64,000 bases of DNA from positions 2,404,001 through 2,468,000 of the forward strand of contig NC_016940.1 in assembly GCF_000250635.1 (NCBI RefSeq), read 5' to 3'. Source of the DNA: Saprospira grandis str. Lewin (GTDB lineage: Bacteria > Bacteroidota > Bacteroidia > Chitinophagales > Saprospiraceae). Below are positions 40,176-54,045 of the stretch, piece by piece (position 1 is the first letter of the stretch; each line of letters begins with the position of its first letter). A program made the position numbers and the translations under genes. The notes under the pieces were generated by a model that worked only from the letters and a program-made list of their open reading frames with translations, was not told where the DNA came from and did no database searches.

Positions 40176-40649
40176 ATGGCTGTTACATTAAAAGCAGGAG
40201 ATAAGGCCCCTAACTTTGAGGGCAAAGACCAGAATGGGAAAAGCATTAGCTTGGCTGATTTTTCGGGTAAAACCCTGATTTTATATTTTTATCCCAAAGA
40301 CGATACCCCCGGCTGTACCAAAGAAGCCTGCAACCTCCGAGATAACTATGAGGCTTTGTTGGAACAAGGCTATGCGGTCGTTGGCGTCAGCCCCGATGGC
40401 GAAGCCTCACATCAGAAGTTTATTGAAAAATATAGCCTACCTTTCCCTTTGATTGCCGATGAGGAAAAGGAAATTATGGAAGCCTATGGAACCTGGGGCG
40501 AGAAGAACATGTATGGCAAAATCAAACTAGGGGTATTGCGGACCACCTTCATCATAGATGGAGAGGGCGTCATTTTGAAAGTATTTAAGCGCCCCAAAAC
40601 TGCAGAACACACAGAGCAGATTTTGAAGGCCATGGAGAAATTATCCTAG
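40176..40649 (+). CDS. bcp: thioredoxin-dependent peroxiredoxin (Bcp/PrxQ type)
   Basis: The 157-residue thiol peroxidase reduces hydroperoxides. The peroxidatic Cys47 is in DDTPGCTKEACNLR and the resolving Cys52 is five residues later, the classic Bcp/PrxQ spacing. FYPKDDTPG and the end region LRTTFIIDGEG fit the family. It is cytoplasmic, 45 bp after the ferredoxin gene and 23 bp before the sigma factor, so a common transcript is possible. Confidence 0.95.
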   Translation: MAVTLKAGDKAPNFEGKDQNGKSISLADFSGKTLILYFYPKDDTPGCTKEACNLRDNYEALLEQGYAVVGVSPDGEASHQKFIEKYSLPFPLIADEEKEIMEAYGTWGEKNMYGKIKLGVLRTTFIIDGEGVILKVFKRPKTAEHTEQILKAMEKLS

Positions 40650-40672: not shown

Positions 40673-41275
40673 ATGAATACAGATCGTGAAACACTTTTGC
40701 TAGAGCAATTGAGTATGGGCCAAGAACTGGCCCTCAAGGCCATTTTTGAGCAGCATTATCAGTCGATATATCGCATTATTTATCGGATGTTGCAAAATAA
40801 AGCTACGGCCGAAGACCTCTCTCAGGAGGTCTTTCTCAAACTTTGGGAAAAGCGAGAAAAGCTGAATATACGTGGACCAATAGGGCCTTATTTGCGTCGG
40901 ATGGCGGTAAATGAGGCCTTGGGCCATTTGCGCAAGCACAAAAAGTACTTTATAGAAGATATAGAGGAACAGCACGATCTGGCCGCGCCCCCAACTGCCG
41001 ATGCAGAAGCGGTTTATGCAGAAAAAGAATTGAAGCAGGCCCTAAATAAAGCGATCAAAAGTTTGCCGCCTCGCTGCCGCTCTGTCTTTGTCCTTAGCCG
41101 ATTTGATGGCCTCTCTTATAAGGAAATTGGAGAGAGCATGAATATCTCGGTGAAAACGGTAGAAAACCAAATGGGCAAGGCCCTAAAGGTGATGCGCAAA
41201 TTACTGAGTCCCTACTTGCCTTTGGCGCTCTTTATTGTTAAAGTTTGTTCTAGCATAGGGGCCAAGCTCTTTTAA
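40673..41275 (+). CDS. ECF-type RNA polymerase sigma factor
   Basis: The 200-residue sigma-70 family factor has region 2 (YQSIYRIIYRMLQNKATAEDLSQEVFLKLWEKRE) and region 4 (LPPRCRSVFVLSRFDGLSYKEIGESMNISVKTVENQMGKAL). This is the Bacteroidota FecI-like ECF group. It is followed by a FecR anti-sigma factor and an STN-domain protein, a cell-surface signalling unit. ATG 40673 is preferred; GTG 40667 is in frame. Its hydrophobic end (LPLALFIVKVCSSI) is a little unusual for a sigma factor. Confidence 0.92.
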   Translation: MNTDRETLLLEQLSMGQELALKAIFEQHYQSIYRIIYRMLQNKATAEDLSQEVFLKLWEKREKLNIRGPIGPYLRRMAVNEALGHLRKHKKYFIEDIEEQHDLAAPPTADAEAVYAEKELKQALNKAIKSLPPRCRSVFVLSRFDGLSYKEIGESMNISVKTVENQMGKALKVMRKLLSPYLPLALFIVKVCSSIGAKLF

Positions 41276-41326
41276 GGCATCCAGCAATAAACCAAAGGCA
41301 GAGCCCCAAATTAGATTCAAGAATAT

Positions 41327-42346
41327 ATGGCAACACTATACAATGGCGAAGATATTCCATGGTCCTTATTGGCCAAGGACATCCAAAATTGCTTAGCAAA
41401 AGAGGAGGAAGAAGCCCTGGCCGAATGGCTGGCCGCTTCAGAAGAACATCAGGCTCTACAAGCCGAGCTAGGACGCATTTGGAGCCTGCCAGAAGCCGAT
41501 TTGCCCCCGAGCAGCCAGGCAGAGGTTTGGCTAGAGCTACAGAAAAAGCTACAGCAAAGAAGGCCGCAAAAAACCTTTTGGCAACGCTATACCAATCTGA
41601 CGGCCGTCGCCGCTAGCCTGCTGCTGCTGGTTTTTGTGCTTTATGGGACAGATAGCTTTAACTGGAAATCAGAGGCCGTGGCCGAGCTCAATTGGCTAGA
41701 ACTAGAGGCCCAAGATAGCCGCAATTTGCAAATGCCCGATGGCAGCATCATTTTCCTCAATAAAAAAAGTAAACTCCGCTATCCCGATCGCTTCCAAGAT
41801 CGTAGAGAGGTGGAGCTTTTGGCCGGAGAGGCCTTTTTTGAGATTAACCGAGATCTAGAACATCCCTTCGTTTTGCAAATTGCTAAAGCTGGACAATTAG
41901 AGGTGCTAGGCACCAGCTTTAATGTTCGGGCCTATGAAAATGAAAGCGAAATGTGCCTGTCGGTAAGCACAGGAAAGGTCCGCTACCGTAGCCCAGAAGG
42001 AGAGGAGTACGTTTTGGAAAAAGGAGAGGCCGTTTATTATAACTATAAAGACAAAAGGGCCAAATTAAAAAGCCCGATCAATCCCACTTATTGGCGAGAT
42101 GGCCTCCTCAATTATAAGGATTTTGCCCTAGCCGATTTGCGCCAAGATCTAGAACAAAAATATGGAGTGCATCTAGAGTTTGAAGATGAAGCTTTGGGCC
42201 AATGCCTTTTTAATGGCAGCTTTAAGTCGCCTAAGGTAGAGGAGATCCTACAAGCGCTTAGCTTTACCCTCAATTTATCGGTAAAAAAAGTCGCCGATAA
42301 GACCTATTTGCTCTCTGGAGCAGCCTGTACTTCTGCTTTAGATTAA
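41327..42346 (+). CDS. FecR-family anti-sigma factor / membrane regulator
   Basis: The 339-residue protein has a cytoplasmic N-terminal domain (about 1-85), one transmembrane helix at about 90-107 (LTAVAASLLLLVFVLYG) and a periplasmic FecR domain. The latter includes QMPDGSIIFLNKKSKLRYP, REVELLAGEAFFEI and VLGTSFNVRAYENE. The DUF4974-like C-terminus ends VEEILQALSFTLNLSVKK. It holds the upstream ECF sigma factor until a signal arrives from the outer membrane. It lies 51 bp after the sigma gene and 19 bp before the STN gene. Confidence 0.92.
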   Translation: MATLYNGEDIPWSLLAKDIQNCLAKEEEEALAEWLAASEEHQALQAELGRIWSLPEADLPPSSQAEVWLELQKKLQQRRPQKTFWQRYTNLTAVAASLLLLVFVLYGTDSFNWKSEAVAELNWLELEAQDSRNLQMPDGSIIFLNKKSKLRYPDRFQDRREVELLAGEAFFEINRDLEHPFVLQIAKAGQLEVLGTSFNVRAYENESEMCLSVSTGKVRYRSPEGEEYVLEKGEAVYYNYKDKRAKLKSPINPTYWRDGLLNYKDFALADLRQDLEQKYGVHLEFEDEALGQCLFNGSFKSPKVEEILQALSFTLNLSVKKVADKTYLLSGAACTSALD

Positions 42347-42365
42347 AGCTTTTCAAGCTATTGTC

Positions 42366-43964
42366 ATGCGTTTATTTACCCGCTTTCTTTTGCTGTTTTT
42401 ATTAGGCAGCCTGCCGCTTTTGATTTGTGGGCAGCGGGCCCAATGGGATTTTAAGGGAGAAACTTTAAAGGAAGTCTTAGTTGAATTAGAGCAATCTTAT
42501 GGATTGCGTTTTGCCTATGGCCAAGGTCGCTTGACTTTGGCCAAAGCTATTTTTCATAGGGCCAATAATTTGCCCCTAGATACGGCCCTAGTCGATTTGT
42601 TGGGGAAGAATAATTTGGCCTACCAAAAACTCGGGCAGCTTTGGGCCCTTAAGGATAGTACGCCCAAGGAACAATGGAGCTTGGCGGCCCCCCTTTTGGC
42701 CCCCAAGCAACAACCCCTAGCCCCCCAATCGCCTTTGCCTTATAGCCGCCCACTGCCGCCTGAGGTCCGCCTGAGTTCGGTGGTTTTGCCCCCTCTTTAT
42801 AGCGAGGGCCTGCTGATTTCTCTAGATGCACAACCTCATGCTCAGGGCATTTTGGTCGACTGGGGAGCGCTTTGGAAGGAGGCCCTAGAACGGCAGTTTT
42901 TAGAGGAGTTGTCCATTTTTCAGCTGTCTTTTTTTGGTACGCCCGAGGAGGAGGCCGTCAAGGCGCAGGTTTTAGCCCTAGATATTGGCTGGGGCCGCCG
43001 CCGACAGCTTTTGGGCCTGCAGCTGAGTTTGGGCGCTAGCCGAGTCGATGAGTCGGCTATGGGCTTTCAGTTTGCACTTTTGGCCAATCAGGTGAAGGGC
43101 GAGCTGATGGGCTTGCAGGCCGCTGGGCTTTACAATCAGACGGCCACACTTTATGGGAGCCAGCTTTCTTTGGGCCTCAATCGAGTTGATAGCAGCTTGT
43201 CGGGCTCGCAGTTTTCACTTTTGGGTAATTTGGCCTTGGGCCAAGGCTATGCGGCCAATAGTTTGCAGTTGGCGGGCCTCTTCAATTATAGTCGGTCCAA
43301 TGCGCATGTACAGTTGGGCGGCTACTACAATCGGGCGCCCAAATTGCAGGGCTGCCAGCTTTCTTTGGGCCTCAATGATACGGATAGTTTGCAGGGCCTA
43401 CAGCTAGGCAGCATCAATTATACGGGCCATTTGCAGGGCTGCCAGTTGGGCCTCTTAAATATTTGCGATACGGCCGCCGCAGGCCTAGGCCTTGGCCTGC
43501 TCAATATCTATAAAAAAGGAGGCTACAACCGCATCAGTCTAGGGAGCTCTGCCGCTTTGCACGCCCAGCAAAGTCTGCAAATTGGCCACCCCCGCTTTTA
43601 TACTATATATGAAATGGGCCAGCGCCTAGATCAGCCGATTTGGCTCTTGGGCTTTGGCTTGGGCTGCCGCCTGCCCATGGAAAAAGGCTATTATTTGCAT
43701 CCCGAGCTGCTTGCTTATAGCTTGCAAGAAGGTCCCGATTGGACCAATGGCCGAGGGCATTTGTTTCAATTACGAGCCCTTTTTGCTCATCCCTTGGGGG
43801 CAGGTTTGGAGCTGCTCACGGGGCCCGAGCTCAATTTTATCCACCAAAATGTAGAAGCTAGCCAAGCCCTAGGCCAACAACTACTCTGGGAAAGAAGCCG
43901 AGGCGATTGGGAACAACGCTTGTTCTGGGGCTGGCAGTTGGCGGTTCGTTATAAGTTGTGGTAG
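42366..43964 (+). CDS. STN-domain protein with LA_2272-like surface repeats
   Basis: The 532-residue protein has a signal peptide (FLLLFLLGSLPLLICGQ) and an STN (secretin/TonB short N-terminal) domain at about 23-95 (WDFKGETLKEVLVELEQSYG). A Pro-rich linker follows. About 200 residues of glycine/leucine repeats come next with a GLQLSLGxNRxDSxxxGxQ pattern, like LA_2272/LA_2273 surface repeat proteins, and a barrel-like end. It has no TonB plug or receptor barrel of the usual size. In the usual system the STN domain belongs to a TonB transducer that contacts FecR; here this protein may take that role. That is inference from gene order. Confidence 0.82.
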   Translation: MRLFTRFLLLFLLGSLPLLICGQRAQWDFKGETLKEVLVELEQSYGLRFAYGQGRLTLAKAIFHRANNLPLDTALVDLLGKNNLAYQKLGQLWALKDSTPKEQWSLAAPLLAPKQQPLAPQSPLPYSRPLPPEVRLSSVVLPPLYSEGLLISLDAQPHAQGILVDWGALWKEALERQFLEELSIFQLSFFGTPEEEAVKAQVLALDIGWGRRRQLLGLQLSLGASRVDESAMGFQFALLANQVKGELMGLQAAGLYNQTATLYGSQLSLGLNRVDSSLSGSQFSLLGNLALGQGYAANSLQLAGLFNYSRSNAHVQLGGYYNRAPKLQGCQLSLGLNDTDSLQGLQLGSINYTGHLQGCQLGLLNICDTAAAGLGLGLLNIYKKGGYNRISLGSSAALHAQQSLQIGHPRFYTIYEMGQRLDQPIWLLGFGLGCRLPMEKGYYLHPELLAYSLQEGPDWTNGRGHLFQLRALFAHPLGAGLELLTGPELNFIHQNVEASQALGQQLLWERSRGDWEQRLFWGWQLAVRYKLW

Positions 43965-43969
43965 GATTT

Positions 43970-44099
43970 GGGGCCTCCGCCTCCCTTCGGTCGTCGGCGC
44001 TACGCTTTGGGGCTCGCAGGTCTGCTCGGCCCTGCGTCGCCTTCGGCTCCTTGGTCTGGCCTGACGGCCACCCCGCCGCATCGCTAGGCCGCTCAACGG
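43970..44099 (+). repeat. GGGGC-headed modular repeat, type I, forward
   Basis: TTTGGGGCCTCCGCCTCCC head, GTCGGCGCTACG, perfect core, GGCCACCC and CGCATCGCTAGGCC tail. It starts 5 bp after the STN gene. Confidence 0.92.
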
Positions 44100-44244: not shown

Positions 44245-44580
44245 CTAGCTCGACTTAGAATTCGCCTAGCTCGACTTAGCGTTTGATTAGCTCGAGCTAG
44301 CTTTTTCCTAGCTCGACTTAGTGTTTGATTAGCTCGAGCTAGCTTTTTCCTAGCTCGACTTAGCGTTTGATTAGCTCGAGCTAGTTCTTTCCTAGCTCGA
44401 CTTAGTGTTTGATTAGCTCGAGCTAGCTTTTTCCTAGCTCGACTTAGCGTTTGATTAGCTCGAGCTAGCTCTTTCCTAGCTCGACTTAGTATTCGCCTAG
44501 CTTGAGCTAGCTTTTTCCTAGCTCGACTTAGCATTTGACTAGCTCGAGCTAGCTTTTTCTTAGCTCGACTTAGCGTTTGG
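44245..44580. repeat. 16-unit 21-bp tandem array (42-bp dimer)
   Basis: The core TAGCTCGA recurs every 21 bp, with 16 units counted exactly in register. Alternate units differ (CTAGCTCGACTTAG and TTAGCTCGAGCTAG), making a 42-bp higher-order repeat. Each second unit contains the palindrome CTAGCTCGAGCTAG-like. The minus strand stays open for about 100 codons and reads as heptads (LSRARKK / LARANQT), a result of the 21-bp period. A peptide is not excluded, but a noncoding array is more likely. Confidence 0.92.
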
Positions 44581-53237: not shown

Positions 53238-53819
53238 TTATTGAAGTGAAATCTGTCGTTCCTCAATCATTCGGCGAATATTGATCAAAGCATAGCGCAT
53301 GCGGCCCAAAGCCGTATTGATGCTTACTTTGGTGAGCTGAGCAATTTCTTTGAAAGAAAGCTCGGCATAATGGCGGAGGATAATGACCTCACGTTGTTCT
53401 TTGGGTAGGCAATCGACCAGTTGACGGACTTTATCGTAGGTTTGGCGCTTCATGATGCGAGTTTCTTGATTATCCTCATTGACTTTAAGGATGTCGAGGA
53501 TATCAAAATCATCGCTAGCGGCCACAGTAGGCCGGCGCTTATTCTTGCGGAAATGATCGACACAAAGATTGTAAGAGATGCGCAAAGCCCATTGAAGAAA
53601 TTTGCCTTCTTCATTGTAGCGGCCAGAGCGAAAAGTGTCGATAATTTTGATGAAAGTCTCTTGGAAAAGATCATTGGCTAGATCCTTATCTTTGACAAAC
53701 ATATAGATAGAAGTATAAATTCTAGCTTTATGCTTGTTCAATAGGTTTTCAAAAGACTTTTCGTCTCCTTGCATATAGCTACGGATAAGGTCCCGATCGT
53801 GAGCAGATTTACAGGTCAT
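53238..53819 (-). CDS. ECF-type RNA polymerase sigma factor
   Basis: The 193-residue sigma-70 family factor has region 2 (ARIYTSIYMFVKDKDLANDLFQETFIKIIDTFRSG) and region 4 (CLPKEQREVIILRHYAELSFKEIAQLTKVSINTALGRMRYALINIRRMI). No FecR partner is adjacent. This is the widely conserved stand-alone type seen next to housekeeping genes in Bacteroidota, with functions tied to envelope or stress response. The signal is unknown. ATG 53819 (MTCKSAHDRDL) is preferred; an in-frame ATG at 53843 is also possible. A TATATTTG box at 54046-54053 may be its -7 element. Confidence 0.9.
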   Translation of the reverse strand: MTCKSAHDRDLIRSYMQGDEKSFENLLNKHKARIYTSIYMFVKDKDLANDLFQETFIKIIDTFRSGRYNEEGKFLQWALRISYNLCVDHFRKNKRRPTVAASDDFDILDILKVNEDNQETRIMKRQTYDKVRQLVDCLPKEQREVIILRHYAELSFKEIAQLTKVSINTALGRMRYALINIRRMIEERQISLQ

Positions 53820-54045
53820 GGCAGTATTTTTTAGGTACAACAAGAGTATGCAGTCCTGGGACAGGCTGTTCTGGGCAGACTATGCCCATAAGGTAAGGAG
53901 TGAACAGATTAAGGAGTGGCCCAAGGCGCATGTTTAAGAACTAGGAAATTTGAACTAAAGGTGTAAATCTTTGTACGATAGGCAAAGCTTGTTTTTTCTT
54001 ATTAGAGGAGAAGGTTATTTTTTTTGGAGTATTGGGGGCTAGGCG

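Follow-up and report, generated by a model that had tools for sequence, protein, structure and literature searches.

We describe a locus of Saprospira grandis that, on balance, is likely to encode a cell-surface signaling circuit with a non-transporter as its outer-membrane partner. As judged from its sequence and structural model, a single protein encoded together with a sigma factor and a FecR-type anti-sigma factor combines a small barrel and a beta-solenoid with an STN domain that is attached through a flexible linker. Cell-surface signaling is usually attributed to TonB transducers. A widespread Bacteroidota STN domain on a non-transporter would uncouple the signaling step from transport, and the LA_2272 repeat family, represented here by the solenoid, would gain its first testable role.

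Organization of the locus

The window, i.e., the whole 64,000-nucleotide stretch of DNA that was analyzed, contains three open reading frames (sigma factor, FecR, and a 532-residue secreted protein) at positions 40673-43964, where the preliminary description had placed them (Table 1). The first product exceeds the TIGR02985 cut-off of 126 bits in a profile scan and is a Bacteroidota-type ECF sigma factor. The second scored 54.9 bits for PF04773 and 41.3 bits for PF16344 in a Pfam scan, both exceeding the cut-off. Hydropathy analysis indicates a single transmembrane helix (best window at approximately residues 89-109), giving a layout of cytoplasmic N terminus, one transmembrane helix, and a FecR domain at residues 127-219. 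The locus therefore contains the pairing that marks Fec/Fox-type systems, an ECF sigma factor with an adjacent FecR-type anti-sigma factor. The FecR_C domain is the probable docking site for the STN domain of the third protein; the profile of the third-gene family weakly matches the C-terminal domain in the structure of an anti-sigma factor (PDB entry 4m0h; E value, 0.022).

Table 1. Features of the locus, in window coordinates
Feature	Position	Strand	Basis
Candidate promoter, TAGGGGTATTGCGGACCACCTTCATCATA	40528..40556	+	Strict motif fit, 116 bp before the sigma start codon
ECF sigma factor, 200 aa	40673..41275	+	TIGR02985, 148 bits; Sigma70_r2 and r4_2
FecR-type anti-sigma factor, 339 aa	41327..42346	+	PF04773 and PF16344 above cut-off; hydropathy
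FecR_C domain	42110..42307	+	PF16344, FecR residues 262-327
Third gene, 532 aa	42366..43964	+	AF2 model, mean pLDDT 85.2, 63-sequence alignment
STN domain, residues 23-98	42432..42659	+	AF2; PupA and PupR fold matches
Linker, residues 99-177	42660..42896	+	AF2; 107-163 disordered
LA_2272 repeats, right-handed beta-solenoid, residues 178-385	42897..43520	+	Domain fold, matches, repeat spacing
C-terminal outer-membrane barrel, ~8 strands, residues 386-532	43521..43961	+	OprF, NspA, and OmpA matches

Several other features of the surrounding DNA were recorded. The sigma gene starts 23 bp behind bcp, a peroxiredoxin gene at 40176-40649. This adjacency recurs in 3 other genomes of the genus and is conserved in the genus only; bcp was not found ahead of sigma in the other loci compared. 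Cotranscription of bcp with the sigma unit is possible. A second ECF sigma-like frame of approximately 213 residues lies on the minus strand at about 53240-53880 and scored 81 bits against the sigma profile. The interval from the third gene to a subtilase gene contains a tandem array (44265-44579; 42-bp unit, 7.5 copies, 91% matches). The 4.4-Mb genome holds 877 copies (450 + 427, at most 2 mismatches) of a GC-rich dispersed repeat with the core GGTCTGCTCGGCCCTGC, compared with 0 for the control. This repeat, apparently an intergenic family of very high copy number, also has a longer form with 13 copies in the window, one of them at 44016-44036.

At the level of the whole S. grandis genome, the locus FecR is the one protein with a FecR_C domain. 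Outside the locus, the STN profile PF07660 gave two weak matches in a secretin and one (E value, 0.15) in a frame of 1,886 residues. The genome encodes approximately 20 plug domains of TonB receptors, and no STN match was obtained in the frames around them; the family profile does detect STN domains on TonB receptors in other genomes. By exclusion, these scans argue that the third protein is the partner of the locus FecR.

Predicted structure of the third protein

In the AF2 model, a hydrophobic N-terminal signal peptide is followed by an STN domain, a linker, a beta-solenoid, and a C-terminal outer-membrane barrel. The Pfam score of the STN domain is only 13 bits, below the cut-off of 28.4, and one relative scores 25.8 bits. 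A profile derived from relatives, in which the window protein is itself one row, gives 87 bits. AF2 folded residues 24-97 as an STN domain with high confidence, and VIA-align matched the model to the signaling domain of PupA (2a02; Z 9.0, 82 residues aligned, rmsd 2.5) and to PupR (6ovk; Z 8.2, 79 residues aligned, rmsd 2.4), with additional resemblance to PilQ. The model, the fold matches, and the 87-bit score together indicate that the secreted protein encoded beside the sigma factor and FecR bears an STN domain, a further mark of Fec/Fox-type systems. The linker is Pro-rich in part, and its pLDDT is below 50 across residues 107-163.

Plug and TonB barrel models gave no match on the third protein in the profile scan, and the AF2 model and its fold matches predict a solenoid and a small barrel, with neither a plug nor a 22-strand barrel. 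A normal TonB receptor was therefore rejected as an identification of the third gene, and the central proposal of the preliminary description, namely, that the STN domain here is carried by something other than a TonB transducer, gains support. The solenoid has a repeat period of 15 to 16 residues. The LA_2272 repeat model (NF047436) scored 25.5 bits in the genome scan (cut-off, 25), 20.0 bits in the single-protein scan, and 40 bits in one relative; the VC2662 model matches residues 189-333. Folded by itself, the segment 178-388 gave a pLDDT of 93.4 and a pTM of 0.86, and it matched an antifreeze protein (3p4g; Z 18.5, 207 residues aligned, rmsd 2.9) and HMW1 (2odl; Z 15.9, 201 residues aligned, rmsd 2.4). 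A left-handed helix of the GlmU or LpxA type was rejected for the repeats, with an rmsd of 9-10 Å versus 2.4-2.9 Å for right-handed structures.

The C-terminal barrel matched OprF (4rlc; Z 13.8, 123 residues aligned, rmsd 3.3), NspA (1p4t; Z 13.5, 132 residues aligned, rmsd 3.1), and OmpA (1qjp; Z 12.8, 118 residues aligned, rmsd 3.1), and most family members carry a GxxAGIRF-type outer-membrane C-terminal signature. Foldseek by itself returned no match at an E value of ≤0.001 for the third-protein models. For topology, the final barrel strand was taken to end in the periplasm and sides were counted backwards, which puts the tight turns at 408-411 and 478-481 on the periplasmic side and the long, variable loops outside. 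Since the solenoid precedes the first barrel strand, it would lie in the periplasm. The repeats had earlier been described as surface features, and because the predicted topology places them in the periplasm, that assignment is probably wrong.

Conservation and alternative layouts

We found 376 stretches of DNA encoding relatives and analyzed the best 80 of them. These comprise 76 distinct full-length loci, each counted as testable for a neighbor where sequence sufficed. Among the best 80 of 376, fecR lies directly upstream of the third gene in 66 of 67 testable distinct loci, and a sigma gene lies upstream in 45 of 64. The three-gene unit is thus conserved, as the preliminary description had suggested checking, and the near-constant fecR adjacency led us to reject a chance arrangement of genes. 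The unit spans Saprospiraceae, Chitinophaga, Cytophaga, Xanthocytophaga, Fulvivirga, and Fluviicola. The third protein was matched in 24 of 100 sampled related genomes, some of these matches being only to the STN domains of TonB receptors, and a phylum survey with the family profile gave matches in 168 of 395 genomes, STN-only matches included.

Two alternative layouts were observed. In two distant relatives, L053 and L131 (Microscilla), the sigma gene is followed by a single protein of 749-768 residues, and both fecR and STN are absent. This protein (L131:4458-7347 and L053:6358-9153) starts with an N-terminal segment and a weak candidate for a transmembrane helix; a long linker of low complexity then leads to a C-terminal LA_2272 solenoid-barrel. 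In four other loci (L050-L052 and L121), STN is followed by a CarbopepD_reg-like segment, scored by Pfam (below cut-off) only in L121 and recognized by eye in L050-L052, and then by the solenoid-barrel, which replaces plug and barrel. The sequences suggest a domain swap joining the front of a SusC-type transducer to a solenoid-barrel rear. Both layouts carry the solenoid-barrel, which therefore forms the outer-membrane terminus in anti-sigma circuits of two types. In addition, an STN-less solenoid-barrel paralogue of approximately 380 residues, often with its own promoter motif, sits beside the STN-bearing gene in several loci (L119, L120, L121, L124, L125, L132-L135, L137, L050, and L052).

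Promoter motif and predicted regulon

Single-word enrichment upstream of system genes relative to other genes yielded a bipartite motif, TAGGGGTA-N15/16-[GA]TC, in the relatives; a search for gapped 5-mer pairs had returned mostly AT-rich noise. Within 260 bp upstream, the motif precedes 25 of 60 fecR genes, 11 of 22 STN-less paralogues, 3 of 40 sigma genes, 3 of 31 TonB receptors, and 1 of 43 head-GIN genes, compared with 0 of 54 small outer-membrane protein genes and 0 of 255 other genes; the reversed pattern was found in no gene class. The Fisher values (7e-21 for fecR) are optimistic because discovery and counting used the same loci. Across seven whole genomes, the strict motif gave 32 sites, not above the reversed control. 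Among them are sites ahead of sigma genes in two Chitinophaga, sites ahead of three head-GIN genes from two genomes, and sites ahead of a TonB receptor common to both Chitinophaga; the head-GIN and receptor sites come from four genomes and lie outside the motif discovery loci, which makes them a partly independent check.

In S. grandis, ten looser matches occur genome-wide, and the strict form fits one site only (Table 1). This site is conserved in two relatives of the genus, and we treat it as a candidate because it falls inside the bcp coding sequence and is missing in a more distant relative (L035). The S. grandis head-GIN gene has no motif in the right orientation. Given that the majority of fecR genes in relatives lack an upstream motif and that genome-wide counts do not exceed the reversed control in S. 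grandis or in the seven-genome scan, either the regulon contains few genes or the motif differs between clades. Judged by the motif, the operon appears to be autoregulated. The response predicted from the promoter sites of relatives comprises more FecR and sensor, STN-less solenoid-barrel paralogues, head-GIN/Toastrack proteins, and some TonB receptors.

Downstream TonB receptors and competing explanations

In many relatives, the next genes encode a 195-residue outer-membrane protein (PF13505, slightly below cut-off), a TonB receptor, and a head-GIN protein (PF10988). For 52 relatives, 4.5 kb or more of sequence downstream was available; in 21 of them, the same strand encodes a downstream TonB receptor with CarbopepD_reg and Plug domains and without STN, commonly between the small outer-membrane protein and head-GIN genes. 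The preliminary description had proposed sensing without a transported ligand and named a separate receptor in the operon of relatives as evidence against it. The 21 loci supply such evidence in part, and a transported ligand may therefore still play a role.

The downstream receptors are the basis for a split TonB-dependent transducer, in which the STN-less receptor binds and imports a ligand and relays its state to the solenoid-barrel protein, whose STN domain reaches FecR. A typical receptor (L049) is 42-47% identical over approximately 780 residues to STN-bearing receptors of three sister loci (L054, L056, and L057), and S. grandis itself encodes an STN-less homologue of 814 residues (36% identity over 756 residues), located 1.6 Mb away; its head-GIN gene is likewise unlinked. 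Since the downstream receptors lack STN and are so close to STN-bearing ones, this rival is serious and live. It nevertheless leaves 31 of 52 loci with no linked receptor, and the motif-bearing receptors would fit the role of target as readily as that of partner. We regard it as doubtful overall.

A second explanation is that the extracellular loops of the barrel capture a ligand at the surface and trigger signaling with no transport step, which would make the protein a true receptor rather than a sensor of envelope state. The predicted topology does place the loops that follow residues 420 and 495, the longest and most variable ones, on the outer side, but the loops of the S. grandis protein are short, and a predicted response of STN-less same-fold copies and head-GIN proteins resembles maintenance more; we consider this explanation unlikely. 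The third protein might instead serve chiefly as a structural component of the outer membrane under sigma control, with a relic STN domain and a FecR that answers something else. This reading would fit an S. grandis STN score far under the Pfam cut-off and the existence of STN-less paralogues with the same fold, but is highly improbable given a high-confidence STN fold and a nearly invariant fecR neighbor for STN-bearing members.

Proposed mechanism

In FoxA/FoxR, the STN domain is bound to the anti-sigma factor as long as signal is absent, and the bound factor is protected against proteolysis (PMC11637429). For the non-transporter circuit that we favor, an analogous mechanism would have the solenoid and STN domain in the periplasm, with STN docked onto the STN-like C-terminal domain of the neighboring FecR. 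Docked FecR would be shielded from proteolysis and would retain the sigma factor. A change in the barrel or solenoid (lost assembly or anchoring, an altered envelope, or a bound ligand) would undock STN, after which FecR would be degraded and the sigma factor released.

The predicted response looks more like outer-membrane maintenance than like a single nutrient uptake operon. Because it includes STN-less copies of the same fold and head-GIN/Toastrack proteins, we prefer, with moderate confidence, sensing of envelope state to sensing of a nutrient. Toastrack domains recur in envelope stress systems (PMC11237479). The parallel is loose, as that study argues for intracellular Toastrack domains and the head-GIN proteins here start with signal-like sequences. 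A tentative extension, possible rather than probable, is phylum-wide surveillance of the outer membrane: correct insertion and anchoring of the small barrel, read via solenoid and STN, would keep FecR intact, and failure would lead the sigma factor to remake the sensor, the STN-less solenoid-barrel protein, and head-GIN, with the LA_2272-type fold serving as a sensory module shared with Dma-like fusions. With one FecR_C protein, S. grandis would offer a simple system for following outer-membrane state to a sigma factor, and the promoter motif makes the regulon directly testable.

Comparison with known systems

The literature searched, with most subscription papers outside its reach, contained no non-TonB STN partner in Bacteroidota, and neither the solenoid-barrel partner, its broad conservation, nor the motif was found in it. 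The general idea has precedent, because VreA of the PUMA3 system (VreA/VreI/VreR) in Pseudomonas aeruginosa is already published as an STN partner without a TonB receptor barrel (PMC2729926), a lack that the S. grandis protein shares. VreA is a small, mostly soluble periplasmic protein with a C-terminal domain modeled as TolA/TonB-like (PMC2729926), whereas residues 178-532 of the S. grandis protein are predicted with high confidence as solenoid and barrel, with no such domain.

The S. grandis locus resembles FecIRA and FoxA/FoxR in its ECF sigma factor, FecR anti-sigma factor, outer-membrane protein with an N-terminal STN domain, and, by its motif, putatively autoregulated operon. It differs in a partner that is predicted to have a beta-solenoid and small barrel instead of a plug and 22-strand barrel. 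Dma anti-sigma factors, which pair with ECF21 sigma factors, join an anti-sigma domain, transmembrane helix, disordered tether, and outer-membrane barrel in one chain (PMC13088901). Here, too, anti-sigma output appears tied to a C-terminal outer-membrane barrel via a disordered tether; the single-chain proteins of L131 and L053 show this layout with the LA_2272 fold, their transmembrane helix being only a weak candidate, whereas in S. grandis the chain would be split into two proteins joined by an STN-FecR contact. Finally, the third protein shares its repeat with the LA_2272/VC2662 family (NCBIfam NF047435-NF047437), but the family models include neither an STN domain nor a link to sigma factors, and the S. 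grandis repeats are predicted to be periplasmic rather than surface exposed.
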